Shown here: positions 12,570 to 28,623 of the stretch, piece by piece
Layout: every line of letters starts with the position of its first letter
Position numbering within the stretch: the stretch's first letter is position 1
Source: Adhaeribacter aerolatus
Lineage (GTDB): Bacteria; Bacteroidota; Bacteroidia; Cytophagales; Hymenobacteraceae
Direction: 5' to 3'
DNA: 64,000 nt
Assembly: GCF_007991635.1 (NCBI RefSeq)
Contig: NZ_BJYS01000001.1
Span: forward strand, 124,001-188,000
Notes under the pieces: model-generated
Told to the model about the DNA's origin: nothing
Database searches by the model: none
What the model saw: the letters and a program-made list of their open reading frames with translations, nothing else
Made by a program: the position numbers and the translations under genes

Positions 12570-14027
12570 TTAAGCAGCTATTTCACTTTCATTGGCCGGC
12601 ATCAGCTTAAACGCACTTTTGGGCGCCTCACAAAGCGGACAGGTATAATCGGCTGGTAAATCCGGGAAAGGTACGCCGGGCAAAATATTGCCATCGCCAA
12701 AAGCCGGGTCATAAACGGTGAGGCAATCCGGACATTGGTGCAAGTTTGGCTGCGGTTTACTTTCAGCAATTGGTTTATTTACTTTTACTTCGGGCTCGTA
12801 GTTTAGCTGTTCATAGTACAAACAGCTTAATTCCATCAGCAAAGGCGCCAAATCTTCTTTCAACACATCTTTCGCAAACGTAATGTACTTCCGTTTATTC
12901 GGGTTAAAGTCCTGGCAATACAGTACATTGTAAGTATCGAGTAACTCGTACTTATCGGCGTACTGCGAAACCGGGTTCTTCTCGATAACAATCGCCGTAA
13001 ATAATACCATCGGCACGGTTTTAACGGCAAAGGTTAAGCCTTCGGTACTGATATCGTTCTGGTCGAAGGTTCGGACCAAGTAACGCTTTAATTGTAAGGC
13101 TTCTTCGTCGAGAACCGGTAAGTGCCAGTTGAGTTCCAGCGACGAGTGCCGCATGTTGATACCATATTTACCCAGCAGCTTTTCGTATTTAATTTTATCT
13201 TTCTCCGAAATCCCCTTGATGATAAATGACTTCCAGGTGGTAAGGCTGATTTTACCAATATTGGTTTCGACGCATAAATCGCAGAGTGCTTTTAAGAATT
13301 TAATGGTGTAGCAGTTGTTGCGCCAGTAAAGCCCCAGCCAATATTTATCGCCGGCCATTTTGTTCATCCCCTCGTACGAAGGGAACGGCGTTTTAGAGAG
13401 TTCTAACCCACCATCTAACGGCCGGTTGTTCGCTTTCATGCGGGCGTTGGTTTGGGAAAATAATTCGTTAACGGGCAAATTCGGCTTTTCTAAATATACT
13501 TCTTCCAACGCCTTCACGGTTCGGACCACATCAAAAGTAAACACCAGGGCCGGCCATAGCACCAGTTCCTCCCCCAGTTCAGGCAAACTCAGGTAGAGAT
13601 ACCAGTAATTATCCTGTTTAGAAGCAACAAAGTTCAGGTTACCGGTAAACAAGGGTACCAGGGTCTGGCGCGGATCGGCAATATTTATTTTAAGCTTGGT
13701 ACGGTACTGTTCAAAATCGTCGAGAATGTAGAGGTAGGTATCGGAATGCAGCCAACTGGTATTGGGCAGCATATCGGCGGCCACGTATGAGCTCACTATG
13801 TTCTGGTAATTATTGCCGTCGAAGTCGTACTCAGTCCGGATAGCCTGGAAGGTATGGTCAAGGATAGTTTTGCTGCGGATATTTACCGGGAATAATATAT
13901 CCTGCCGAGAACCGAAATGAATGGTCTCGTTGCCAAAGTCTTCGGCGGTTTCCAGAATTTTTTTCATGTCGCCGGGAGATACTACCCCACCTCTCGCGAA
14001 TACCCGGATTAAGTCATTCTTCTCCAT
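12570..14027 (-). CDS. rubredoxin-fused, siroheme-less nitrite/sulfite-reductase-like protein
   Basis: This 485-residue protein begins with a nitrite/sulfite reductase ferredoxin-like half-domain (MEKNDLIRVFARGGVVSPGDMKKIL, then HFGSRQDILFPV) and continues with a second reductase-like region. It ends in a full rubredoxin domain with CPDC (432-435) and CPLC (463-466) plus the VPFPDLPADYTCPLC core. I do not find the four-cysteine siroheme/[4Fe-4S] pattern seen in NirB, so it is probably an electron carrier or assembly partner rather than a reductase. It lies downstream of the nitrate reductase on the same strand, separated by 348 bp of palindromic sequence. A role as electron donor to nitrate reductase is inferred from context. 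Confidence 0.8.
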   Translation of the reverse strand: MEKNDLIRVFARGGVVSPGDMKKILETAEDFGNETIHFGSRQDILFPVNIRSKTILDHTFQAIRTEYDFDGNNYQNIVSSYVAADMLPNTSWLHSDTYLYILDDFEQYRTKLKINIADPRQTLVPLFTGNLNFVASKQDNYWYLYLSLPELGEELVLWPALVFTFDVVRTVKALEEVYLEKPNLPVNELFSQTNARMKANNRPLDGGLELSKTPFPSYEGMNKMAGDKYWLGLYWRNNCYTIKFLKALCDLCVETNIGKISLTTWKSFIIKGISEKDKIKYEKLLGKYGINMRHSSLELNWHLPVLDEEALQLKRYLVRTFDQNDISTEGLTFAVKTVPMVLFTAIVIEKNPVSQYADKYELLDTYNVLYCQDFNPNKRKYITFAKDVLKEDLAPLLMELSCLYYEQLNYEPEVKVNKPIAESKPQPNLHQCPDCLTVYDPAFGDGNILPGVPFPDLPADYTCPLCEAPKSAFKLMPANESEIAA

Positions 14028-14375: not shown

Positions 14376-17300
14376 TTAAACTGCTACCTGCTCTACTTCC
14401 TGTAGCTTTTCCAAAATATTCTTTACTTCTGGTTTGCAGCTACCGCAGCCCATACCGGCGCCCGATTGCTGGCAGAGCTGGCGGAATTCGGTGCAGCCAC
14501 CTTTTATCATATTCGTGAGGTTACCTTCGCCTACGTTGTTGCAGGAGCAAACCAGTTTACCCAATACCGGGGCGGCTGCTTTGCCCGAGCGCAGCAATTC
14601 CATCCGCTTATCAGATAACTCCAGTTTATTCTCAATGAGGGTTTTAAACTCGGCAAACTCACTTTTATCGCCCATCAAAATGGCTCCTACCAGGCGATCC
14701 TGGTGAATAATACATTTCTTGTAGTAACGATTGGCCTTGTCGGTGAATATTACTTCTTCGTACTCCGGGTTATTATCCGGAGCTTCTACCATCCCCAATG
14801 AGCACAAATCCTGGCCCGATAATTTGAGAATATTCATGAAGATGGAACCGGAATAATAGCTACTCTGGTCGCCGGTCAAAAAACGGGCGGCTACATCGGC
14901 TTGGGCTTCTGCGGCCATGGTAATACCGTTTACTATGCCGTTAAATTCGGCGACCTCGCCCATGGCAAAAATATCCTGGTCGCTGGTTTGCAGGTATTCG
15001 TTAACCACCACGCCTCTGCCGCACTGGAGCTTGGCCTCCAGGGCTAATTCCATATTGGGTCGGGTACCGATGGCATAAACGGCGGCATTACAGGTTATGG
15101 TTTTACCACTTTTTAGATTTACCACCAAACCAGGCTCATTTTTGTTCGGAAATACGGTTTGTACCTGGTCGTTAAAATATACCTGAATACCCAATTCCTC
15201 TACATATTCCCGGAGCAAATCGCCGGAAATCTGGTCGAGTTGCCGCTCCATCAGGCGGGAGCTTAACTGCACAATGGTCACGTTAATGTCTATTTCGCGC
15301 AGCGAAGCCGCTAATTCCAGCCCCAGCAAACCACCCCCTACGATTACCACGTGGCCTTCGTAGTTCAGGAAAGTCTTCAGGCGGTCGGCATCGCCACGGT
15401 TACGCATAGTAAAGATGCCCGGCAAATCCATGGGTACATCTTTGGGTACAAAAGCCCGGCTGCCGGTAGCAATAATTAATTTATCGTAAGAATGTACCTG
15501 GTCTCTGGTATCCGTAACCGTTTTGTTTTCGCGGTTTATGGCGGCGATACCAGTAGCCTGATGTAGATGCACATCCAGTTTGGCCAGTTCGCCGGCTTTA
15601 AATTTTTCGAGCTGCTCCCAGTTTAGGTGGCCATTTAAATACTCCGGCAATAACACCCGGTTGTAAAACGGATATTCTTCCTGCGAAAACACGTGAATTT
15701 CATCGCGCCGGTTTTTCTCGCGGTAGGTATTAATTAAGCGGTAGGCGGCCGCTCCCGCCCCGATTACCACTATCTTCTCGAAAGGCTTTTCGTACTTCTG
15801 TACCTGTACTGCCGAGTATTTAAAATCCGGTTCTTTTGATTTCGGGTCTACTAAATTATTGGTGAGGTTATTCGTCCGCCCAAAGTCACGGTTTAATATT
15901 TTACCCCAGTGCATCGGCAGGAAAACCACACCGGTTTTGATATCGGTGGTTAACACGGCATTTACACAAACCTTTCCGCGCGCACTATTAATTTCTATCG
16001 TATCGCCATCGTTAATGCCGCGCAGGGCCGCATCAATCGGGTTTATTTCGATAAAAGGTTTGCTCAGGTGCTGGTTTAGTTTGTTTACCTTGCCGGTTTT
16101 GGTCATGGTATGCCACTGGTCGCGGATACGGCCTGTGGTGAGCACCAACGGAAACTCCCCGGTTAATGGCTCGGATTGGTTAACCACACTGGCGGGGGTA
16201 TGGATTTGGGCCCGCTGGTTAGGCGTATAAAACTTTTTATCCTGAAACAACCGGGGCGTTCCAGCATTGCCGCTGACGGGCACCGGCCATTGTATGGTTT
16301 GCTTTTCTATTAAATCAGCATAGTTTAAGCCGCTCACATCAATATTGGTGCCTTTGGTTAAGCCGGCATGCTCTTCGTAAATTTCGCCTACACTATTGTA
16401 ATCAAAGCCCGGGAACTGCATCTTCTGAGCGAAGCGGCACAAAATTTCTACATCCGGCAGGGCTTCACCGGGTGGCGGCAATACGGCATTCAGGTAGCTG
16501 ATGCGACGCTCTGAGTTGGTCATGGTGCCTTCTTTTTCGAGCCAACCGGCGGCCGGTAATACTAAATCGGCGTATTGCAAAGTATCGGAACGGCCCGAAA
16601 TATCCTGCACCACCACAAAACGCGCTTTCTTTAATGCTTCTTCTATCATGCCGGCATCCGGCATACTCACCAGGGGGTTGGTGCAAATAATCCAGACGGC
16701 TTTTACCTTGTCGTCGCGCAGACCTTCGAATAATTGGGTAGCGGTCAGGCCGGGCTGCGCTGGCACACTCGGTACGCCCCAGTAATCCGCTACTTCCTGC
16801 CGGTGCACCGGGTTGGCTAAATCGCGGTGCGCCGAAAGCAGGTTGGCCATTCCTCCCACTTCGCGACCACCCATGGCATTGGGCTGACCGGTTAAGGAAA
16901 AAGGGCCAGCACCGGGCTTGCCAATTTGCCCGGTAATGAGGGATAAATTTAATAAAGCTAAATTTTTATCAACCCCAATTACGCTCTGGTTCAGCCCCAT
17001 GGCCCACATAGAAATGAAACCTTTGGCCTGGCCAATGTAGGTAGCTGCTATCTTGATATCGGCTACGGAAACATCGCAGATAACCGCCGCTTCTTCCAGC
17101 GAGGTTTGCAGCACAAACTCCCGGAAAGTTGCGAATCCATCGGTGTGCTGCGCCAGGAAGGCATCATCAATTAAATTTTCTTCTATCAGGTGCCGGGCGA
17201 TGGCGTGATATAATACAATATCGGTACCGGGATTTATTTGTAGGTGTAAATCGGCCAGGGCGCAGGTTTGCGTGCGGCGGGGGTCTACCACCACAATCTT

Positions 17301-17900
17301 TACATCCGGGTTTTCTTCTTTGTGTTTTTCGATGCGCCGGAATACAATGGGATGACACCAGGCCGGATTGGCACCGGCAATTAAAAAGCAATCAGCTAAT
17401 TCGATATCGTCGTAGCAGGTGGGTACAGCATCTTCGCCGAGGGTCATTTTATAGCCTACTACTGCCGAACTCATGCACAGCCGGGAGTTGGTATCGATGT
17501 TATTCGTACCCAGAAAGCCTTTTGCTAGTTTATTGGCAACATAATATTCCTCGGTTAAGCACTGACCCGAAATATAAAAGCCGACCGAATCCGGGCCATA
17601 TTTAGAAATAATAGATTTGAAAACGGCAGCGGCCCGGTCTAAAGCGGTATCCCAGCTTACCCGTTGCCGCGGCTGGTTTTTAGCCCAGCGCATTTCGGGG
17701 TACAGCAGGCGGTCGGAGTAATCGGAGGCGACGTAATGCAGGTTTAGGCCTTTGGAGCAAAGCATGCCTTTGTTGGTGGGGTGCTCGGGATCACCTTCCA
17801 CACGGATTTTACCTTTGGCATCCTGCTGCACGATTATGCCGCACCCTACTCCGCAGTAAGAACACGTGGTTTTAAAGCTTTTTTCTTTGCCTTTTTTCAT
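14376..17900 (-). CDS. assimilatory nitrate reductase catalytic subunit fused to FAD and [2Fe-2S] modules
   Basis: This 1174-residue protein opens with a molybdopterin oxidoreductase: [4Fe-4S] cysteines 13, 16, 20 and 48 (CSYCGVGC...MLCSKG), then the bis-MGD region (DTNSRLCMSSAVVGYK, GQPNAMGGREVGG) and the C-terminal molydopterin-dinucleotide domain (LVLTTGRIRDQWHTMTKTGK). From about residue 703 a NirB-like FAD/NAD(P)H oxidoreductase follows (KIVVIGAGAAAYRL, second GGGLLGLELAAS). Near 1118 comes a BFD-like [2Fe-2S] domain (CSCNNVG, then CQQSGAGMGCGSCKPE). It would reduce nitrate to nitrite in the cytoplasm, drawing electrons directly from NAD(P)H through its own module. It lies after the transporter gene in the same orientation, but a 535-bp spacer suggests its own promoter. 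Confidence 0.92.
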   Translation of the reverse strand: MKKGKEKSFKTTCSYCGVGCGIIVQQDAKGKIRVEGDPEHPTNKGMLCSKGLNLHYVASDYSDRLLYPEMRWAKNQPRQRVSWDTALDRAAAVFKSIISKYGPDSVGFYISGQCLTEEYYVANKLAKGFLGTNNIDTNSRLCMSSAVVGYKMTLGEDAVPTCYDDIELADCFLIAGANPAWCHPIVFRRIEKHKEENPDVKIVVVDPRRTQTCALADLHLQINPGTDIVLYHAIARHLIEENLIDDAFLAQHTDGFATFREFVLQTSLEEAAVICDVSVADIKIAATYIGQAKGFISMWAMGLNQSVIGVDKNLALLNLSLITGQIGKPGAGPFSLTGQPNAMGGREVGGMANLLSAHRDLANPVHRQEVADYWGVPSVPAQPGLTATQLFEGLRDDKVKAVWIICTNPLVSMPDAGMIEEALKKARFVVVQDISGRSDTLQYADLVLPAAGWLEKEGTMTNSERRISYLNAVLPPPGEALPDVEILCRFAQKMQFPGFDYNSVGEIYEEHAGLTKGTNIDVSGLNYADLIEKQTIQWPVPVSGNAGTPRLFQDKKFYTPNQRAQIHTPASVVNQSEPLTGEFPLVLTTGRIRDQWHTMTKTGKVNKLNQHLSKPFIEINPIDAALRGINDGDTIEINSARGKVCVNAVLTTDIKTGVVFLPMHWGKILNRDFGRTNNLTNNLVDPKSKEPDFKYSAVQVQKYEKPFEKIVVIGAGAAAYRLINTYREKNRRDEIHVFSQEEYPFYNRVLLPEYLNGHLNWEQLEKFKAGELAKLDVHLHQATGIAAINRENKTVTDTRDQVHSYDKLIIATGSRAFVPKDVPMDLPGIFTMRNRGDADRLKTFLNYEGHVVIVGGGLLGLELAASLREIDINVTIVQLSSRLMERQLDQISGDLLREYVEELGIQVYFNDQVQTVFPNKNEPGLVVNLKSGKTITCNAAVYAIGTRPNMELALEAKLQCGRGVVVNEYLQTSDQDIFAMGEVAEFNGIVNGITMAAEAQADVAARFLTGDQSSYYSGSIFMNILKLSGQDLCSLGMVEAPDNNPEYEEVIFTDKANRYYKKCIIHQDRLVGAILMGDKSEFAEFKTLIENKLELSDKRMELLRSGKAAAPVLGKLVCSCNNVGEGNLTNMIKGGCTEFRQLCQQSGAGMGCGSCKPEVKNILEKLQEVEQVAV

Positions 17901-18435: not shown

Positions 18436-19815
18436 TTATATTTCTGCTAAAGCCGGCTTCAACTTACCTTCCGTAACCGGAATCCCCCCCAGCGAAGCAT
18501 CCATTTCAGATTGGGCTTCAGCCTCATGGGCTTTAGAGAATTTCACTAAAAATGAGGTAAACGAAACGGCTATCACCACACAACCTATAATAAAGAGCGC
18601 ATCGCTGTAGGTTAAATTTTCTTCTTTTAATAAAAACCCGGCTAACACGGCCCCTACGTTACCGCCCGCACCTACAATACCCGAAACTGTGCCAATGGCC
18701 TTTTTATTGATGAATGGTACCACTGAATAAGTAGCGCCTTCTGACATTTTAACGAACAAGCTAAAGAACAGCATGGTGGCGATAGCAATGGGCAGCACGG
18801 TCATCTGGGAGAATAAAAGGAGCGTAACACCTTCCATGAACAAGGCGAAAGCCAGGAACAGCACGCGGCCTCTTAAACCGTAGCGGATACCAAATTTGTC
18901 GCCGAAGTAACCACCCAGGGTGCGGGCGAAAATATTCATCATGCCAAACAGACCGGCAATTAATCCAGCCGTTTCCAGGCTCAGCTTAAACTTATCGAAG
19001 TAATAAATGGCGGCAATATTATCGATGGTAATTTCAATACCGAAACAGGCGCCGTAGATTAAGAACAGCATCCACACCCGGATGTCTTTGCAGGCTTTCC
19101 AGAAAGCGCCTTTGGCTTCGGCGGCTTTCATGCGGTATTCCGGATCGGATTTTTTCAGGTCGGCCACGTTACCTTCGGGTGTATCCTGGGTAAATTTGTA
19201 ATAAACAATACCCATCAAAAACAGCATCACGCCGGGTACCACCATGGCATAGCGCCAGGCACTGGCTTCTACAAAACCAAACCCAACTAATCCGGCAAAA
19301 ATCAACGGCATTACTATTTGGGTAACGCCGCCGCCCATATTTCCCCAACCGGCGGTAGTAGCATTAGCCGTGCCCACCACATTAGGACCGAACATCATGG
19401 AGGTGTGGAATTGTGTTACCACGAAAGAGGCGCCGATAATACCAATGGCCAACCGGAACAGCAGGAATGATTCGTAACTATTGCTCAGGCCGATGAACAT
19501 TACCGGCAGTGAACCTAAAATTAAAATATAAGTGTAGGTAACCCGGGGACCAAATTTATCGCAGAGCCAGCCAATTAACAGGCGGGCAAATATGGTAATA
19601 GTTACCGACGAAATTACAATATTACCAATCTGGGATTTGGTCAAGGCTAATTCTTCCCGGATAATGGGCATGAGCGGCGCTACGCCAAACCAGCCAAAAA
19701 AACATAAAAAGAAGGCAAACCAGGTAACATGAAACGTGCGCATGTGCGGCGTTGCCAGACTAAAAAGGTTAATACGGGAGGCCTTGCCTACTTTAGGAGT
19801 TGAAACTGCTTTCAT
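18436..19815 (-). CDS. narK: NarK/NNP-type nitrate/nitrite MFS transporter
   Basis: The 459-residue membrane protein has about 12 hydrophobic segments and the nitrate/nitrite porter hallmarks: an N-terminal FHVTWFAFFLCFFGWFGVAP segment, then LCDKFGPRVTY after helix 2. The two NNP glycine-rich signatures are AGWGNMGGGVTQIVMP near 155 and GIVGAGGNVGAVLAG near 390. Arginines sit where the family binds anion (FARLLIGWL). It imports nitrate and may exchange nitrite across the inner membrane. It follows nirD by 31 bp in the nirB-nirD-narK operon. Confidence 0.93.
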   Translation of the reverse strand: MKAVSTPKVGKASRINLFSLATPHMRTFHVTWFAFFLCFFGWFGVAPLMPIIREELALTKSQIGNIVISSVTITIFARLLIGWLCDKFGPRVTYTYILILGSLPVMFIGLSNSYESFLLFRLAIGIIGASFVVTQFHTSMMFGPNVVGTANATTAGWGNMGGGVTQIVMPLIFAGLVGFGFVEASAWRYAMVVPGVMLFLMGIVYYKFTQDTPEGNVADLKKSDPEYRMKAAEAKGAFWKACKDIRVWMLFLIYGACFGIEITIDNIAAIYYFDKFKLSLETAGLIAGLFGMMNIFARTLGGYFGDKFGIRYGLRGRVLFLAFALFMEGVTLLLFSQMTVLPIAIATMLFFSLFVKMSEGATYSVVPFINKKAIGTVSGIVGAGGNVGAVLAGFLLKEENLTYSDALFIIGCVVIAVSFTSFLVKFSKAHEAEAQSEMDASLGGIPVTEGKLKPALAEI

Positions 19816-20314: not shown

Positions 20315-22825
20315 TTAGATTACCGGCACTTTCTGTCCGCGCTCGGGTCGGAAATTAATAGATGGGTCTGGTTCGGGGGTATTGACAAAGTGCTGGAAAC
20401 GCTTGCGTAATTCGGGGTTGTTTACCACTTCTTTCCACTCGCAGGCGTAGGTATCCACCATAAATTCCATTTCGCGTTCCAGGTCGGCACAAATACCCAA
20501 AGAGTCTTCGATAATTACCTGCCGCAAATATTCAATACCACCTTCCATTTTATTTAACCAGGTAGCGGTGCGGTTCAGCGGTTCGGCCGTTTTGATGTAG
20601 AACATCAGGAACCGGTCTAAATAACGAAGGCAGGTTTCGGTGTCGAGGTCGGTGGCGAAAAGTTGCGCGTGCTGCGGTTTGGCGCCGCCATTGCCGCAGA
20701 TGTACAGGTTCCAGCCTTTTTCGGTGGCAATAATACCAAAGTCTTTTGATTGCGCTTCGGCGCATTCGCGTACACAACCCGATACGCCGCCTTTTAATTT
20801 ATGAGGCGACCGCAGGCCCCGGTACCGTTCTTCTATTTGAATCGCAAAACCTACCGAATCGTGCAAACCGTAGCGGCACCAGGTAGAACCAACGCAGCTT
20901 TTTACGGTACGCAAGCTTTTGCCGTAGGCATGGCCGCTCTCGAAACCGGCGTTTACCAGTTCTTCCCAGATATCGGGCAGCTGATCTACCCGTGCACCAA
21001 ACATATCGATGCGCTGGCCGCCGGTTATTTTGGTATACAGGCCGTATTTAGCTGCTACCTGGCCAATCACAATCAGCTTTTCTGGGGTAATTTCGCCGCC
21101 GGCAATCCGGGGAACAACCGAATAGGTACCACCTTTCTGAATGTTAGCCAGGTAACGGTCGTTGGTATCCTGGATGGTAGCTTGTTTTAAGATAAGTTCG
21201 TTCCAGGTGCTCGCCAGAATGGAAGCTACGGCTGGTTTACAAATTTCGCAGCCATCACCTTTGCCATGGTGACTGATTAACTCATCAAAAGTGCGGATAT
21301 TATTAACTTTTACGATGTCCAGAATTTCGTGGCGGGAATACTGGAAGTGCTCGCACAAAACCTGCTTCACTTCCTGGCCCATTTCTTTCAGGGTGGCATT
21401 GAGTAAATCGCCCAGCATGGGTACACAGCCACCGCAACTGGTACCGGCTTTTGTACATTTTTTAATACTGGCTACATCGCAAAGTTTTTCATCTTTAATA
21501 GAATTGCAGATAGTGCCCTTGCTTACGCCTTCGCAGGAGCAAATAGTAGCTTCTTCGGGTAAGCTCAACACACCGGCTCCGGCAGACTCACTGCCGCCGC
21601 CCCGGCTGCCCAGGATTAAATCTTCGGCATCTGGTGGTACAATAATCCGGTTTTGTACTGTTTGCAGCAGCATGTTGTAGTTAGCCGCTTCGCCTACTAA
21701 AATACCACCCAGCAAATATTTGCCGTCTTCCGAAATATTAATGCGCTTGTAAATACCTTTAATCCGATCTTCGAAAACAATGGTGCGGGCATTCGGCTCC
21801 GAGATAAAAGGATCTCCAAAGCTGGCTACATCTACCCCAATTAGTTTTAGTTTGGTAGACATATCGAAACCTTTAAAGGTTTTTTCACCGCCCACCAGGT
21901 TAGTTACCACCGTTTCGGCCATATCATAGCCGGGGGCTACTAGTCCGTAAATCATGCCGCCGTGCAAAGCACTTTCGCCAATGGCATATATATCGGGATC
22001 AGAGGTTTGCAATGCATCGTTTACCAGAATACCACCCCGCGGACCTACCGACAGACCGGCTTTAACGGCTAACTCATCGCGCGGCTTAATACCCGCCGAT
22101 ACAATTATCATATCAACGTCCAGCTCACTGCCGTCCGCAAAAGTCATTTTACGTACGCCGGGCTCACCCAGAATAGCAGTTGTACTTTTATTTAAATGAA
22201 TGCTGATGCCCAGGTTTTCCAGTTTTTTCTTCAGCATATCGGAGCCGAACTCATCTAACTGCCGCGGCATTAACCGGGAAGCAAATTCTATTACGTGCGT
22301 AGTCAGTCCCATATCCATCGCCGCTTTAGCTGCTTCCAGGCCCAGTAAACCACCGCCAATTACAGCGGCTGTTCTGGCTTTGGGTGCATATTCCAGCATG
22401 GCATCCAGGTCTTCGATGGTGCGGTAAACAAACACGCCTTCTTTTTCTACGCCGTTAATGGGTGGTACAAAGGCGCTGGAACCAGTTGCCAGGATTAATT
22501 TATCGTAGCTAATGGCTAAACCTTTATGCGTCGTAATTAATTTGCTGGTAGCATCAATGCCGGTAACCAGCTCGCCTAAATGCAGATTAATATTATTCTC
22601 TTCGTACCACGAAACGGGAGCCATGGTTAATTCTTCGGCGGTGGTGCCGGAAAAATAAGCGCTTAAGTGTACCCGGTCGTAAGCTGGACGGGGTTCTTCC
22701 CCGAAAACTGTTATCTGGTAAGCACCAGGCTGGGCTTTTGCTACTAACTTTTCGCAAAACTTATAGCCGACCATGCCATTGCCTATTACTACTATACGCT
22801 GCGGATGTGCTGGAGAACTGCTCAT
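20315..22825 (-). CDS. nirB: NAD(P)H-dependent nitrite reductase large subunit
   Basis: The 836-residue protein shows the full NirB layout. An FAD/NAD(P)H oxidoreductase comes first (VVIGNGMVGYKFCEKL at the N-terminus, second dinucleotide fold GGGLLGLEAAKA near 155). Two BFD-like [2Fe-2S] regions follow (CSCEGVSKGTICN near 430; CEICKP near 525), then a ferredoxin-like half-domain. The siroheme/[4Fe-4S] site has CVGSTWCRYG (about 645) and GCVRECAEAQ (about 682). It reduces nitrite to ammonium by six electrons in the cytoplasm. It heads the nirB-nirD-narK operon. Its leader holds a conserved hairpin (22874-22903) and upstream dyads shared with the porin gene. Confidence 0.96.
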   Translation of the reverse strand: MSSSPAHPQRIVVIGNGMVGYKFCEKLVAKAQPGAYQITVFGEEPRPAYDRVHLSAYFSGTTAEELTMAPVSWYEENNINLHLGELVTGIDATSKLITTHKGLAISYDKLILATGSSAFVPPINGVEKEGVFVYRTIEDLDAMLEYAPKARTAAVIGGGLLGLEAAKAAMDMGLTTHVIEFASRLMPRQLDEFGSDMLKKKLENLGISIHLNKSTTAILGEPGVRKMTFADGSELDVDMIIVSAGIKPRDELAVKAGLSVGPRGGILVNDALQTSDPDIYAIGESALHGGMIYGLVAPGYDMAETVVTNLVGGEKTFKGFDMSTKLKLIGVDVASFGDPFISEPNARTIVFEDRIKGIYKRINISEDGKYLLGGILVGEAANYNMLLQTVQNRIIVPPDAEDLILGSRGGGSESAGAGVLSLPEEATICSCEGVSKGTICNSIKDEKLCDVASIKKCTKAGTSCGGCVPMLGDLLNATLKEMGQEVKQVLCEHFQYSRHEILDIVKVNNIRTFDELISHHGKGDGCEICKPAVASILASTWNELILKQATIQDTNDRYLANIQKGGTYSVVPRIAGGEITPEKLIVIGQVAAKYGLYTKITGGQRIDMFGARVDQLPDIWEELVNAGFESGHAYGKSLRTVKSCVGSTWCRYGLHDSVGFAIQIEERYRGLRSPHKLKGGVSGCVRECAEAQSKDFGIIATEKGWNLYICGNGGAKPQHAQLFATDLDTETCLRYLDRFLMFYIKTAEPLNRTATWLNKMEGGIEYLRQVIIEDSLGICADLEREMEFMVDTYACEWKEVVNNPELRKRFQHFVNTPEPDPSINFRPERGQKVPVI

Positions 22826-22827
22826 AG

Positions 22828-22903
22828 GTTTTAAGTCTTAAAAAATAATTATAAAATGAACCTTTAATTATTGCCTTAACAGGAGTTGCCGCTCCTGCTA
22901 AGG
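22828..22903 (-). ncRNA. conserved leader RNA element of nirB (hairpin plus AT-rich tail)
   Basis: On the minus strand a 12-bp stem (CCTTAGCAGGAG and CTCCTGTTAAGG, one G-U pair) closes hexaloop CGGCAA at 22903-22874. Then follow a conserved tail including AATAATTAAAGGTTCATTTT and, next to the start codon, ACTTAAAAC. The same layout occurs before the porin gene (26029-26098), with different stem bases that still pair but an identical loop, GAG/CTC closing pairs and tail. No T-run follows the hairpin on this strand, so it is not a terminator. A cis-acting regulatory RNA is inferred. Confidence 0.6.
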
Positions 22904-23033: not shown

Positions 23034-23051
23034 TTGAGTAAAAATACTCAA
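23034..23051. promoter_or_regulatory. operator-like dyad TTGAGTA-N4-TACTCAA upstream of nirB
   Basis: This perfect 7-4-7 inverted repeat starts 209 bp before the nirB ATG. Each half, TACTCAA, matches the NarL heptamer TACYNMT at six of seven positions. AGGTTAAAA follows 5 nt later on the nirB strand, as it does at the porin dyad (26231-26248). Confidence 0.5.
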
Positions 23052-23520: not shown

Positions 23521-23560
23521 AAAAAAGCCTGCCGATTACGAATCAGCAGGCTTTCGCTTT
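23521..23560 (-). terminator. terminator of pfkB-family gene
   Basis: On the minus strand AAAGCCTGC pairs with GCAGGCTTT around a 13-nt loop, followed by a T-run, just after the kinase stop codon. Confidence 0.85.
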
Positions 23561-23577
23561 TTTACTTATATTATTTT

Positions 23578-24486
23578 CTAGAAACGCACCAAATCGGCAA
23601 ACATCTGTACCCGGGCGTCTATCTCTTCTTGACTTAAATTAACTAATCGCTCGGTACCGAATTTTTCTACGCAAAACGAAGCCATAGCCGAACCATGTAT
23701 AACGGCGCTCTTCATGTTGTTAAAGCTTACATCTCCAGCCTTGGCTAAATAACCAATGAAACCACCGGCAAAAGTATCGCCGGCTCCGGTTGGGTCAAAT
23801 ACATCTTCCAGCGGCAGCGCTGGGGCATAAAATATTTCGTTCTGGCCGAAAAGTAAAGCACCGTGCTCGCCTTTTTTAATAATTAAATATTTAGGGCCCA
23901 TTGCCATAATCTTCCGGGCGGCTTTCACCAGCGAATATTCGCCGGATAACTGGCGGGCTTCTTCGTCGTTAATAGACAGCACATCTACCAGCGCAATGGT
24001 TTTTACCAACTCATCGTAAGCAATATCCATCCAGAAATTCATGGTATCCATTACAATCAGTTTCGGGCGGTTTTGCAGTCGCTCGATTACGGTGCGCTGC
24101 ACCTGAGGAGCCAGGTTACCCAGCATCAGGTACTCGCAGTTCTGGTAAGCCTCCGGAATAATCGGGTCGAAATCGCCTAACACATTCAGCTCAGTGACTA
24201 GCGTTTCGCGGCTGTTCATGTCGTTGAAGTACCGCCCGGACCAGAAAAAAGATTTTTCGTTTTCTTTAATCTGCAAACCGGCAGTATCAACCCCGTGCTC
24301 CTGAAATAATTCGATATCGGACTTTAGAAAATCACCGCCCACCACTGCAACCAGGTTCACCGGCTTCACAAAGTACGACGATGATAAAGAAATATAGGAA
24401 GCCGCGCCGCCTACAATTTTATCGGTTTTACCAAAAGGCGTTTCCAGGGCATCGAAAGCTACCGACCCAATTACTATTAAGCTCAT
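23578..24486 (-). CDS. PfkB-family carbohydrate/nucleoside kinase
   Basis: The 302-residue protein is a ribokinase-fold kinase with the N-terminal GG motif (VGGAASYISL, about 26-35) and the C-terminal signature DPTGAGDTFAGGF (about 232-244), whose GAGD carries the catalytic Asp. Such kinases phosphorylate sugars or nucleosides; the short lid and DALETPFGKTDKIVGG start resemble the adenosine-kinase-like subgroup common in Bacteroidota. Substrate is not predictable. It sits between the porin gene and nirB but has its own terminator, so a role in nitrate metabolism is not implied. Confidence 0.88.
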   Translation of the reverse strand: MSLIVIGSVAFDALETPFGKTDKIVGGAASYISLSSSYFVKPVNLVAVVGGDFLKSDIELFQEHGVDTAGLQIKENEKSFFWSGRYFNDMNSRETLVTELNVLGDFDPIIPEAYQNCEYLMLGNLAPQVQRTVIERLQNRPKLIVMDTMNFWMDIAYDELVKTIALVDVLSINDEEARQLSGEYSLVKAARKIMAMGPKYLIIKKGEHGALLFGQNEIFYAPALPLEDVFDPTGAGDTFAGGFIGYLAKAGDVSFNNMKSAVIHGSAMASFCVEKFGTERLVNLSQEEIDARVQMFADLVRF

Positions 24487-24652: not shown

Positions 24653-26017
24653 TTATTTAGAGAGAAAAGTTGGTTTGATGTTAATCATCAGGTAAGCCCA
24701 ATCAGCTTGCAAATCAGGATTAGAAACGTTCTTTACCGCTGAGGAAGCCAGGGTAGAAGTAGCAAAGAAATGGGAATAGCCGGCTTCCAGATTTATCATT
24801 TTGGTTAAGCCGTAGTTTACCACCAAATCGAGTTCAGTACCAAAGTTGCGGTCCAGGCTTATGCGGTCGTTGTTTACTACATTATTAGAAGCCACAAACT
24901 GGTGCGCATCCAGGTTCATCACCAGGTTATCTTTTAATTTATAGCGGGATTTTAGGTAGTAGTTGATTAAGCCGTTTTTGCCAAAGCCATCGGCTACGTA
25001 AAAGTAATCCATGTTGCCCCAGAACTTATGCGGCGTACCGTAAAGCGGATCGAACTGCCGGTTAGTGGCATTAGGCGTAACGCGGTTATTGCCGGAAGTA
25101 TAATCAATGCCGGGCCCAATGCTTAGCTGCGGCGAAACCGCGTACATGGCCGCTGCGGAAACCAGGTGCGAACGCAGTTTGCCGCCGTTTTTATCTTTGC
25201 CGCTTTGCAGGTAAGCGCTGCCGGTAAAGCTAATTTTTGGCGAAAGATTGGTAGCTACATAAAATCCGGAAGTAACCCGGCTCCAGGTACCTTTATCCAG
25301 CACCCGTACGGTGCTATCTAGGTGGTATTTATTAAAGTCATCTTTCAGAACCAGAAAAGATGCACTGCCTTTACCAAATTTACGACCAACGTACAGAAAC
25401 TGCATCGACTTATATAAGGAACCAATGCCATTGGTACCCGCAGTGTAACCCGTAGGTATACCATTATAGATAGTACTGGCTTTGCGCTCCTGGTTTTGGT
25501 TATAAGCTACGCCCAAATGCCCCATCCAGCCCTGGTGTTCCAGTTTGAGCAAGGCTAAATCGTGGCGACGGCCTTGTTGCAGCCAGTCCAGGTTACCCAA
25601 CAGGCGCGAGTCATCGTAAACCAGTTCCTGCCGACCTATTTTTAAAGAGAGATTTTCAATGGCTGCGGTAGTATCCAACAGCATTATTTCGCCCCAGGCT
25701 TCGTGCATCATTAGGCCATCATTGGCATCCGGCGTAACGCGGTTAATGGTAGAGGCATCCTGTCCCCAAACCCGTACATCCTGAATAGCGGTGAAAAGTT
25801 TGAAGCGGTAACCCGCGTAACCTACATTTAAGCGGGTGCGCTGGGAGGTAAAAAAAGCGGGTGCCGCCTCTTTGGTGGTTAGGGTGCCCTGCCCGTCGCG
25901 CAACTCCGAACGGGTACGTACCTGCCCCGAAATGGTAAACTGCGCCAAGGCAAAATTACTACTCAACAGCCCCAGCATTAGCGCGCCGAAAAGTTGATTC
26001 CGTAACTTTTTTTTCAT
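24653..26017 (-). CDS. outer-membrane beta-barrel porin, alginate-export-like
   Basis: The 454-residue protein starts with a signal peptide (about 1-25, ending SNFALAQ) and continues as alternating beta-strand sequence typical of an outer-membrane barrel. Stretches such as FTISGQVRTRSELRDG and LKIGRQELVYDDSRLLGNLDW resemble the alginate export porin family. The family names a fold; the solute here is unknown. A shared operator-like dyad and leader hairpin with nirB suggest passage of nitrate or nitrite through the outer membrane. That link is inferred from regulation and position, divergent from the NarX/NarL-like pair. Confidence 0.82.
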   Translation of the reverse strand: MKKKLRNQLFGALMLGLLSSNFALAQFTISGQVRTRSELRDGQGTLTTKEAAPAFFTSQRTRLNVGYAGYRFKLFTAIQDVRVWGQDASTINRVTPDANDGLMMHEAWGEIMLLDTTAAIENLSLKIGRQELVYDDSRLLGNLDWLQQGRRHDLALLKLEHQGWMGHLGVAYNQNQERKASTIYNGIPTGYTAGTNGIGSLYKSMQFLYVGRKFGKGSASFLVLKDDFNKYHLDSTVRVLDKGTWSRVTSGFYVATNLSPKISFTGSAYLQSGKDKNGGKLRSHLVSAAAMYAVSPQLSIGPGIDYTSGNNRVTPNATNRQFDPLYGTPHKFWGNMDYFYVADGFGKNGLINYYLKSRYKLKDNLVMNLDAHQFVASNNVVNNDRISLDRNFGTELDLVVNYGLTKMINLEAGYSHFFATSTLASSAVKNVSNPDLQADWAYLMINIKPTFLSK

Positions 26018-26028
26018 AAGTTTGAATA

Positions 26029-26098
26029 GTTTTAAGTTAGAAATAATTTAAAATGAACCTTTAATTATTGCCCTGGAAGAGTTGCCGCTCTTCCAGGG
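26029..26098 (-). ncRNA. conserved leader RNA element of porin gene
   Basis: On the minus strand arms CCCTGGAAGAG and CTCTTCCAGGG (11 perfect pairs, 26098-26071) close the hexaloop CGGCAA. The tail AATAATTAAAGGTTCATTTT and ACTTAAAAC follow, ending 12 nt before the start codon. Stem bases differ from the nirB copy but keep pairing, while loop and tail are the same. On the opposite strand the hairpin is followed by TTTTTTA, so this copy might also stop plus-strand transcription. Confidence 0.6.
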
Positions 26099-26230
26099 TT
26101 TTTTATTGCTGTTTTGTTAAGCTTCCGAAAAATTTATACTTATTCCTCACTTACCTACCTATTAATTAAATAACTCCCTTTAATAATATTTTATTAAATC
26201 AGGTATTTACTTAATATTTTAACCTAGACT

Positions 26231-26248
26231 CTGAGTAATTATACTTAA
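26231..26248. promoter_or_regulatory. operator-like dyad upstream of porin, matching nirB dyad
   Basis: CTGAGTA, spacer ATTA, TACTTAA is one base away from the TGAGTA-N4-TACTCA palindrome. It begins 214 bp before the porin ATG (209 bp for the nirB copy) and 133 nt from the hairpin (131 nt for nirB). AGGTTAAAA follows on the porin strand. Confidence 0.45.
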
Positions 26249-26501: not shown

Positions 26502-27980
26502 ATGAATTTATCCGCTGACCCACAGATTGCCCGTAAAATTACCCGCCTGTATTTGCTGGCTCTCACGGCAGTGGCATTATTATCGGTAGGTGGGCAATAT
26601 TTGGTGCAGCGTTCGCTGGAGAGTCAATCTTCCGATTCGCGGGTGGTAAATATTGCGGGCCGGCAGCGCATGCTTAGCCAGAAAATAACCAAAACGGTTT
26701 TGTTGCTGCAGGAGCAACCCGACAGCTTGCTACTAGCTACTTACCTGGCCGATTTGGATGAGGCGCTGGATTTGTGGCAGAAAAGCCATAAAGGTTTGCA
26801 AAGCGGTTATCTGGCATATATTCAAACACCGGTAAACAACAGCGATTCTACCCGTGCTATGTTTGCGGCCATTAATCCGCTTTTTGGAGCTATCTATAAT
26901 AATGCCACTGCTGTAAGTAAATATTTTCATCAGCAGGGAGACAATATTCCAGTACCAGCGGACATCCGAAACAACATCCGGATAATTCTTGCCAACGAGC
27001 GAACTTACCTGCAAGGCATGAACCAGATTGTTTTTCAGTACGATGCCGAAGCCAAAAGGCGGGTAAACGCCTCGCAGCAAATTGAGCTTATACTATTATT
27101 ATGTACGCTGATTATTCTGGTACTCGAAGGCTTGTTTATTTTCCGGCCGGCTGTGCGGCAAATTCAGCGAACCATTGGGTTGCTCATCGATTCGGAACAA
27201 CGCACCCACCGGGTAAACGAAGAACTGGTTGGGGTAAATAAATCGCTGGAAGAAACCCGCGAAGCCTTACTGCGGGCCACCGACGAAAAATACCGCCAGC
27301 AAATAAACGAGCAGAAAATGCGGTCGGCGTATTTGATTGAAGGTCAGGAGGAAGAACGCAAGCGGGTAGCTTTAGAAATTCACGACGGCCTGGGCCAGAT
27401 GCTGACGGCACTAAAATTTGGCATTGAGAAAATTGGCGACTCGGTAAACAGTACCGTAACCGCGCAGCAAAACCTGGATGAACTCCGCGGTCTGGTGAGC
27501 CAGGCTATTTCGGAAGCCCGCACTATTTCGTTTAATTTAATGCCGGCCGTACTAAACGACTTTGGCATTTCGTCGGCTTTAAAATTACTAACCTCCCAAG
27601 TAGCCTCCAATGCCGGCATTAACGTTACGTTTAATACCAACTGGAACGGCAAAAGATTAACCCGCAACCTCGAAATTGGGCTGTACCGGGTAAGCCAGGA
27701 AGCCCTTAACAACGCAATAAAATACGCCGAAGCTACCGATATCACCGTCGAGCTCTGGCATAAAAAGAAATATATTCACCTAACCATCCTGGACAACGGG
27801 CGCGGCTTTAGTCCCCAGAAATTATCCACCCGTTCGCGCAAAACCGGTCCCTCGCACGGCATCAGCAATATGAAAGAACGCGTTTACATTATTAACGGCG
27901 ATATAAACATAAATTCCAAACCCGGACAGGGCACCCAGATATACGTAAAAGTACCTTTACTCCCAACCGAACATGCATAA
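26502..27980 (+). CDS. NarX-like sensor histidine kinase (PilJ-type sensor, HisKA_3)
   Basis: The 492-residue membrane kinase has TM1 near 16-34, a periplasmic helical sensor (about 35-190) containing NIAGRQRMLSQKI and TM2 near 191-215. A coiled-coil linker, a HisKA_3 domain with phospho-accepting His in ALEIHDGLGQ (about 297) and an HATPase with LYRVSQEALNNAIKYA, LDNGRGFSP and GISNMKERV follow. The NIAGRQRMLSQ stretch corresponds to the P-box of NarX/PilJ-type sensors that bind nitrate in enteric NarX. It overlaps the response regulator by 8 bp and is divergent from the porin. Nitrate or nitrite as signal is inferred from motif plus neighbours. Confidence 0.88.
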   Translation: MNLSADPQIARKITRLYLLALTAVALLSVGGQYLVQRSLESQSSDSRVVNIAGRQRMLSQKITKTVLLLQEQPDSLLLATYLADLDEALDLWQKSHKGLQSGYLAYIQTPVNNSDSTRAMFAAINPLFGAIYNNATAVSKYFHQQGDNIPVPADIRNNIRIILANERTYLQGMNQIVFQYDAEAKRRVNASQQIELILLLCTLIILVLEGLFIFRPAVRQIQRTIGLLIDSEQRTHRVNEELVGVNKSLEETREALLRATDEKYRQQINEQKMRSAYLIEGQEEERKRVALEIHDGLGQMLTALKFGIEKIGDSVNSTVTAQQNLDELRGLVSQAISEARTISFNLMPAVLNDFGISSALKLLTSQVASNAGINVTFNTNWNGKRLTRNLEIGLYRVSQEALNNAIKYAEATDITVELWHKKKYIHLTILDNGRGFSPQKLSTRSRKTGPSHGISNMKERVYIINGDININSKPGQGTQIYVKVPLLPTEHA

Positions 27981-28623
27981 AATAAAAGTAATCTTAGCCG
28001 ACGACCACACCATAGTGCGCAACGGCATTCGGTCTTTACTCGAAGGCCTTACTGATGTAGAAATTATTGGCGAAGCCCAAAATGGTGCCGAAGCCATTAG
28101 TAAAGTGCAGGAACTGGCTCCTGATGTATTAATGATTGATATTGCCATGCCAGTAATGAACGGCATTGAAGCTACCGCCCAGCTCAACAAACTGCATAAA
28201 AGCACCAAATGCCTGATGCTATCGATGCACAACAACGAAGATTATATTCTAAAATCGGTGGAGGCCGGGGCTTACGGCTATTTATTAAAAGATACTACCC
28301 GCGACGAAATGCTGCGGGCCATCCGGACGGTTGCGGGCGGCGAAAAATATTACAGCCCTTCGGTATCCAATATTATTATTAGTTCCTACCTGCAAAAAGT
28401 AAAACTGCCCGAAACAGCGCTGCCGCCAAAAAAGAAGCTGAGCAAACAGGAAAAAGCCATCTTAAAATTTATTGTGGAAGGCTCGAACAGCCGCGAAATT
28501 GCCGAAAAGCTAAACCTCAGCGTACGCACCATCGACAACCACCGGGCCAGCATGATGAAACGCCTGAGCGTAAAAAATGCCGTTGAACTGGTTCGTAAAG
28601 CTTTGGAAGAGAAATTGGTTTAG
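27973..28623 (+). CDS. NarL/FixJ-family response regulator
   Basis: The 216-residue protein has a receiver domain (1-120) with phospho-acceptor Asp in DVLMIDIAMPVMNG (about 55) and acidic ADDHT near residue 11. It also has a LuxR-type HTH (about 150-212) with LSKQEKAILKFIVEGSNSREIA and LSVRTIDNHRASMMKRL. It starts inside the kinase gene, so the two are translationally coupled. It likely binds DNA as a dimer when phosphorylated; the TGAGTA-N4-TACTCA dyads before nirB and the porin are candidate sites. Confidence 0.93.
   Translation: MHKIKVILADDHTIVRNGIRSLLEGLTDVEIIGEAQNGAEAISKVQELAPDVLMIDIAMPVMNGIEATAQLNKLHKSTKCLMLSMHNNEDYILKSVEAGAYGYLLKDTTRDEMLRAIRTVAGGEKYYSPSVSNIIISSYLQKVKLPETALPPKKKLSKQEKAILKFIVEGSNSREIAEKLNLSVRTIDNHRASMMKRLSVKNAVELVRKALEEKLV

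Follow-up and report, generated by a model that had tools for sequence, protein, structure and literature searches.

CsrA/RsmA-type leaders present several hairpins with a short conserved loop to a protein that acts on translation, and guanidine-II (mini-ykkC) RNAs are built of tandem small hairpins with ACGR loops. The targets of ANTAR proteins are described as two hairpins, each with a hexanucleotide loop whose first letter is A and whose fourth is G (PMC3369931). The second hairpin of such targets adjoins or overlaps an intrinsic terminator. SnoA of Bacteroides thetaiotaomicron is a nitrite-responsive RNA encoded at a separate locus, where it acts with HcpR on the hcp promoter (PMC13370916).

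The element described here outlines like the NasR/EutV dual-hairpin leaders, yet it appears from sequence comparison to be previously undescribed: Rfam held no match for it at the gathering threshold (permissive searches scored only below the gathering score, with E values of 0.13 and 0.85 in 11 loci), and a search of the open-access literature returned no such leader in print for the phylum. With ANTAR leaders (NasR/nasF, EutV, NasT) it shares small tandem hairpins with six-base loops of conserved letters and a position in leaders of nitrate assimilation genes. In contrast to them, its loops read UGGSRG or YKGCNR with A at position 1 in 0 of 27, no terminator was seen next to the last hairpin (by scan in the window, by eye in other leaders), and the hairpins number one to three at a near-constant distance from the start codon; the pair of hairpins that marks ANTAR targets is seen in relatives, whereas a single hairpin was found in each of the two leaders of the DNA studied here. 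None of 13 Cytophagales genomes held an ANTAR protein above the cut-off (G000, G222 and G276 gave weak scores of 21-23 bits) in a search in which two of three positive controls rang (G511, 74.7 bits; G512, 73.2 bits) and G513 and 14 standing control genomes were silent. Because the loop rule, the terminator and the protein all fail, the element is not filed under ANTAR, in agreement with the preliminary description, which had set it apart from NasR leaders on its loop letters. Several hairpins with short conserved loops also recall CsrA/RsmA targets, but GGA is absent from the loops UGGCRG, UGGGGG, CGGCAA, CGGCCA and CUGCCA. Guanidine-II RNAs likewise have tandem small hairpins with short conserved loops; the loops here are not ACGR, UGGGGG cannot kiss, and there is no Rfam match. 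SnoA offers the parallel of a nitrite-responsive RNA in Bacteroidota, but it is not a leader of assimilation genes.

The window, i.e. the whole 64,000-nucleotide stretch of Adhaeribacter aerolatus DNA that was analysed, contains the following genes and sites around the element:

14376..17900, minus strand: molybdopterin oxidoreductase (assimilatory nitrate reductase-like) fused to NAD(P)H reductase and BFD domains, from domain matches
18436..19815, minus strand: narK, nitrate/nitrite MFS transporter, same direction (NCBIfam TIGR00886)
20315..22825, minus strand: nirB, nitrite reductase large subunit (NCBIfam TIGR02374, NF011565), followed by nirD, narK and nitrate reductase
23034..23051, no strand: DNA palindrome TTGAGTATTTTTACTCAA upstream of nirB, putative operator of the NarL-type regulator
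23523..23555, minus strand: terminator-like hairpin between the kinase gene (3' of porin) and the nirB leader, from a consensus scan
24653..26017, minus strand: porin, Alginate_exp family (Pfam PF13372)
26234..26246, no strand: related palindrome AAGTATAATTACT upstream of porin, with the same putative role
26502..27980, plus strand: histidine kinase with PilJ-type sensor domain, NarX-like (Pfam PF13675, PF07730)
27973..28623, plus strand: NarL/LuxR-type response regulator (Pfam PF00072, PF00196)

The minus-strand genes run in the order porin, pfkB-type kinase, nirB, nirD, narK and fused nitrate reductase, with the PilJ-domain kinase and NarL-type regulator adjoining the porin on the plus strand; nirB and its Adhaeribacter rhizoryzae DK36 counterpart share 98% identity. 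Downstream of the kinase gene, a terminator-like hairpin (23555-23523) suggests separate transcription of nirB. The palindrome upstream of nirB is a possible operator for the NarL-type regulator. Of 18 scanned leaders, 6, both of the window's included, have palindromes of the TTGAGTATTTTTACTCAA or AAGTAnnnnTACT type 205-317 nt upstream of the ATG; in such leaders the hairpin is therefore probably part of the transcript. Promoter consensus scans gave nothing consistent directly 5' of the hairpins. Between the kinase gene and the nirB leader (at 23522-23647) there is also a weak Rfam match to BTnc005, at 30.1 bits against a gathering score of 174.8, which overlaps the terminator-like hairpin and is probably due to chance. 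Behind the nitrate reductase gene, positions 12570-14027 encode a protein with sulfite/nitrite reductase half domains and a C-terminal rubredoxin domain; this family (F8) has relatives in 10 of 19 compared regions, the window included.

The two leaders, all on the minus strand, comprise these parts:

22874..22903, minus strand: nirB leader hairpin, 12-bp stem CCTTAGCAGGAG/CTCCTGTTAAGG (sequence read, fold and R3 covariance model)
22903-22892, minus strand: nirB leader 5' arm CCTTAGCAGGAG (sequence read)
22891-22886, minus strand: nirB leader hexaloop CGGCAA (sequence read)
22885-22874, minus strand: nirB leader 3' arm CTCCTGTTAAGG, 12 bp including one G.U
22828..22872, minus strand: nirB leader AU-rich tail, with AATAATTAAAGGTTCATTTT at 22872-22853 and ACTTAAAAC at 22836-22828; ATG at 22825
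26071..26098, minus strand: porin leader hairpin, 11-bp stem CCCTGGAAGAG/CTCTTCCAGGG (sequence read, fold and R3 model)
26098-26088, minus strand: porin leader 5' arm CCCTGGAAGAG (sequence read)
26087-26082, minus strand: porin leader hexaloop CGGCAA (sequence read)
26081-26071, minus strand: porin leader 3' arm CTCTTCCAGGG, 11 bp
26018..26070, minus strand: porin leader tail to the ATG, with AATAATTAAAGGTTCATTTT at 26069-26050 and ACTTAAAAC at 26037-26029; ATG at 26017

Direct reading confirmed what had been reported from the letters of this DNA: a nirB leader with a 12-bp hairpin, a CGGCAA loop and a tail reaching the start codon, and a porin leader with the same loop, tail and position in which the stem (11 bp, 26098-26071) is changed on both sides. 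The loop and a 24-nt tail are thus common to both leaders, and the stem bases differ with pairing kept; 48 nt separate the stem end from the ATG before nirB, and 54 nt before the porin. The two hairpins have folding energies of -18.9 and -20.8 kcal/mol, with z = -5.9 in both cases and none of 200 shuffles doing as well, and the R3 model gives 78.0 bits for the nirB hairpin and 101.8 bits for the porin hairpin, each sequence being itself part of the model. The 20-nt tail, with up to three mismatches, has two sites in the window, both in leaders of the element (0.03 expected; 0 of 100 shuffles reach two), and GGCAATAATTAAAGGTTCATTTT, at the same tolerance, occurs in two places in the organism's own 6.7-Mb genome, with none for the reversed control. 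A dispersed repeat was rejected for the tail because the genome holds only these two copies. The tail had been put forward as conserved: it is shared by the two window leaders far beyond chance, but in its exact 24-nt form it is a genus-level feature, not conserved outside. The AAATTATTnCTAACTTAAAAC part of the porin leader tail is also present in Rhodocytophaga. The ACTTAAAAC/CTAACYTA box was not counted as a specific signal, since other start codons are preceded by it too; 18 of its 50 occurrences lie no more than 25 nt from the ATG of an ORF of at least 100 aa, and six of those 18 are the element's leaders.

Copies in other Cytophagales, which the preliminary description had led one to expect, were found. 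Run against 390 genomes of the order, the R3 covariance model matched at least 8 sites at E <= 0.01, spread over 7 genomes, 5 genera and 3 families, a count that strict filters make a lower bound; two of the eight are the window's own, and the other six all lie directly before a porin orthologue. In Rhodocytophaga aerolata (porin, 70% identity) the element occupies the 97-nt gap between narK and porin. A protein search identified porin orthologues in 170 of the 390 genomes at E <= 1e-30, and 69 porin leaders were read, a non-random sample made up of 29 of the best 30 matches (the window itself supplies the 30th) plus 40 chosen from the list. Of these 69, 30 have the element, with UGG-type loops in 26 and CUGCCA in four (L182, L183, L184, L189); this count leaves out L185, an isolated hairpin 190 nt upstream, and keeps L227 for its UGGGGA hairpin. 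None of the other 39 leaders has a loop of this class. When the window genus and the R3 matches are added, the element precedes porin orthologues in 13 genera and four families (f1, f4, f5, f11). A match in L075 (22.6 bits) was dropped, as no ORF of 100 aa follows it in the same direction.

The porin that bears the element usually opens, or lies within, a porin-nrtABC/narK-nitrate reductase cluster, and in Rhodocytophaga (G251), G276, G306 and G326 the element is flanked by two genes that run the same way. In G465, a UGGGGG hairpin is found before the porin and also before narK, which parallels the porin and nirB copies of the window. A different hairpin with a larger loop was observed at a similar position before the porin in L186, L233, L234 and L238, which are among the 39 leaders without the element, and in L098 and L100; the seven-base loops at that position (L098, L100, L186, L233, L234) read CUGUGAA, CCGUGAA, CUACGAA, GUGCGAA and CUGGACA. 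These hairpins are perhaps a diverged version of the same system.

Within Adhaeribacter, the porin leader carries the element in 3 of 8 genomes searched (G000, G019, G029) and the nirB leader in 2 of 7 genomes with a full nirB match (G000, G019), the other five being without it; among 47 nirB leaders of named genomes, the hairpin occurs only in A. rhizoryzae. Because so few nirB leaders carry the hairpin, that of the window looks like a second copy of the porin leader, and the element is, judged by this distribution, primarily a porin leader whose nirB copy is secondary within the genus. The earlier proposal of a cis-acting RNA of nitrate genes accordingly holds as to conservation and novelty to Rfam, but needs revision as to its main address, which is the porin, as to its 24-nt tail, which is a trait of the genus, and as to hairpin number, other genera having 2-3 in tandem. 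The porin leader of G029 reads GCCCTGAAAGAT, loop CGGCCA, ATCCTTCAGGGC; it has pairs in which both bases differ and a single A.C mismatch. In G003, G009, G014 and G024 the porin lies at most 1 kb behind nirB and is preceded by other sequence. The incomplete assembly G034 (L011, 1424-1614) has the element before a decayed porin start, with decay setting in after about 100 nt, an orphan leader of a broken gene; leader and porin remnant are 79.6% identical to the window over 196 nt. This copy was not counted as a porin leader, as only a remnant of the start stands behind it, and weak R1-model matches in the genus (E 0.26-10) were taken as chance.

Outside the genus, what is conserved is a hexaloop, YKGCNR or UGGGGG, a covarying stem and the spacing to the start codon. 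The prediction that stem changes in relatives preserve pairing was borne out: across the inner 5 bp of 27 hairpins (16 last, 11 upstream), 65 pairs are changed on both sides and 93.3% of cells are paired, a percentage that is inflated because some of the 27 were chosen for pairing. The covariation score of 1.161 compares with 0.273 in shuffles (0 of 500 as high) and at most 0.242 when the alignment is slid, and such covariation implies a paired nucleic acid, most simply RNA. In a less selected test on the 300 nt before the 69 homology-found porins, TGG[CG][AG]G occurred 70 times in sense, 37 times with a stem of at least 4 bp, against 4 of 28 in antisense; ten other loops in sense gave no such stem in nine cases and 2 of 5 for TGGC[AG]T, with the qualification that some control loops overlap one another or the true loop and that related species are non-independent. 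CTGCCA in porin leaders is closed by a perfect 4-bp stem in 1 of 11 occurrences, and the other three element copies mismatch after 3 bp. Loop position 3 is the sole invariant column in the 27 hairpins. Positions 1 and 6 are U with G or C with A, and U/G and C/A are isosteric wobble pairs. The CUGCCA loop (L066, L177, L189) is the exact reverse complement of UGGCAG (L188, L180), as if the hairpin had been inverted in place, which is odd for one-strand recognition.

Two tandem hairpins precede the porin in G306, G222, G250 and six species of genus g16, and three do so in G508, G433 and G453, with an identical hexaloop in each array and 37 to 115 nt between hairpins. The loop is UGGCAG in G306 and G250, UGGCGG in G508, G433, G222 and genus g16, UGGGGG in G453 and G465, and CGGCAA in G000 and G019. 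Wherever more than one leader hairpin was seen in a genome, the loops are identical and the stems unrelated, and between genera the loop changes in concert; this identity within and difference between suggests a trans-acting reader of the loops. Upstream hairpins were mostly sought with the preset TGG[CG][AG]G, by which other loops may be missed; the first of the two hairpins in the G465 porin leader was seen by eye and mismatches after 3 bp.

In 2.04 Mb scanned on both strands (the window, L064-L143 and L251-L270), 10 tandem pairs within 90 nt were found in 8 genomes, three of them from the triple array of G433, and all read towards the porin; nine other loop patterns yielded no tandem pair in the same 2.04 Mb. 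Across the whole 9.5-Mb genome of G222, six letter matches were found, one of which has both stems and is the porin leader. Letter matches number 62 in G433, 82 in G508 and 68 in G209 genome-wide, and at 30 loci examined over G222, G433, G508 and G209, two stems of at least 4 bp occurred nowhere except in the G222 porin leader. Single hairpins with the loop are only mildly enriched and not distinctive: 31 of 3,729 TGGC[AG]G occurrences are closed by at least six pairs, most of them away from porin leaders, compared with 0.2-0.5% for seven other loops. Because such single hairpins occur elsewhere, specificity rests on the tandem arrangement together with position.

In 20 leaders measured, which have dissimilar tails, the last stem ends 37-54 nt short of the ATG. 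In all 13 g33/g122-type leaders with a UGGGGG/UGGGGA hairpin (L211-L213, L215, L216, L222, L224, L227-L231 and L242), a five-codon ORF opens 42-46 nt past the stem, and in these 13 of the 30 element leaders the porin start follows about 200 nt beyond that ORF, 222-281 nt after the stem. The five-codon ORFs encode MKKTR, MKKST, MKSYS and the like, each closed by a stop codon, and are possible leader peptides. A 58-nt segment over the element region averages -17.8 kcal/mol before 14 porins versus -9.0 before 169 other ORFs of the same loci, 40 of which also reach -12 kcal/mol. The near-constant distance to the start codon favours an action on translation over one on termination. Shine-Dalgarno pairing is rarely used in Bacteroidota.

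A reasonable, if still tentative, reading of these comparisons is that nitrate/nitrite assimilation genes carry the element as a cis-acting leader RNA, its loops being read by a trans-acting, non-ANTAR factor that tunes translation. One to three hairpins, with one hexaloop per genome and the last stem about 45-50 nt before the start codon, would be recognised through their loops by this factor, probably an RNA-binding protein. The loop-bound factor could then control access of ribosomes to the region between hairpin and AUG, and the output of the nitrate porin and, in the window genus, of NirB would be tuned after transcription, with transcription itself probably switched by the neighbouring NarX/NarL-like pair. 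From sequence we infer the partner protein, the translational step, its direction (activation or repression) and the signal. With greater reserve, we suggest that this is a loop-reading system separate from ANTAR and CsrA, with a genome-specific loop code that is rewritten in concert, acting on translation at a fixed distance. The 39 of 69 porin leaders without the loop class and the 13 of 30 with a distant porin start speak against the main reading, as do the poor distinctiveness of the loop in single hairpins, the scarcity of perfect stems around CTGCCA and the intrinsic-terminator score of the porin hairpin on the opposite strand; neither ANTAR nor the YbiB-like protein described below fits as partner. 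If the reading is correct, nitrate assimilation in Bacteroidota gains a conserved cis-regulatory RNA; the loop identity per genome suggests a trans-acting factor that a defined bait could retrieve, and the near-constant start-codon distance makes post-transcriptional control directly testable.

Other explanations fit parts of the same evidence. Were a nitrate-responsive factor to bind the hairpins and control transcriptional read-through by attenuation or antitermination, as NasR and NasT do, the shared pathway, the architecture similar to the dual hairpins of ANTAR targets (PMC3369931) and the placement before a long nas gene cluster in several genomes would all be accounted for. This is nonetheless unlikely, given that no sense-strand terminator-like site lies between hairpin and ATG in either window leader and none was seen by eye in the other leaders printed, that ANTAR was not found above the cut-off, and that a fixed ATG distance is unnecessary for such a mechanism. 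The spacing to the ATG is equally what might be seen of a passive mRNA element that stabilises the porin mRNA or sets its 5' end, or leaves the landing region free of pairing, with no specific partner; the location between two same-direction genes in Rhodocytophaga (G251), G276, G306 and G326 and the other hairpin types at a similar place in other lineages could be read in this way as well. Loops that are conserved, repeated and identical within genomes while the stems change freely make such passivity doubtful.

Direct sensing of nitrate, nitrite or a nitrogen metabolite by the RNA, as a tandem-hairpin riboswitch comparable to guanidine-II, would suit tandem small hairpins with short conserved loops attached to one pathway. 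It is made improbable by the single-hairpin forms of the window, by inter-hairpin distances that vary from 37 to 115 nt, and by the concerted shift of loops to UGGGGG, which are unable to kiss by G-C pairs; kissing of tandem loops via GC was set aside, G453 and G465 having UGGGGG in all copies seen. We give very little credence to a DNA-level or antisense feature, whether an antisense intrinsic terminator or a palindromic repeat. The porin hairpin is followed by TTTTTATT, which on the plus strand makes a terminator-like site (26070-26099), and certain lineages have a loop that is the reverse complement of the one found elsewhere. A terminator, however, would not be expected to come as several hairpins sharing one loop, the nirB copy is not terminator-like, the tail occurs only twice in the organism's own genome, and with both strands searched all 10 tandem pairs read towards the porin.

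A gene next to the operon, which we take to be YbiB/TrpD2-like, was considered as a general partner of the leader RNA and rejected, as it is present in 12 of 36 genomes and in 0 of 8 Adhaeribacter genomes. It was observed near the porin operon in the nas regions of G251, G508, G209, G475, G301 and G433. Its sole Pfam assignment is a glycosyl transferase family 3 N-terminal domain scoring 26.4 bits against a cut-off of 26, and YbiB is reported in one paper to bind DNA.

Finally, hairpins at about -400 to -540 in g33-type leaders belong to upstream coding sequence and were not used as evidence. At columns 213-226 of alignment A10, a GGCG[TGGGGG]CGCC hairpin lies inside a cobA-like upstream coding sequence of g33/g122-type genomes. 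Its GTGGGGGC is invariant in 13 of 13 sequences, synonymous sites included, and G443 carries a compensatory pair (GGTG..CACC).
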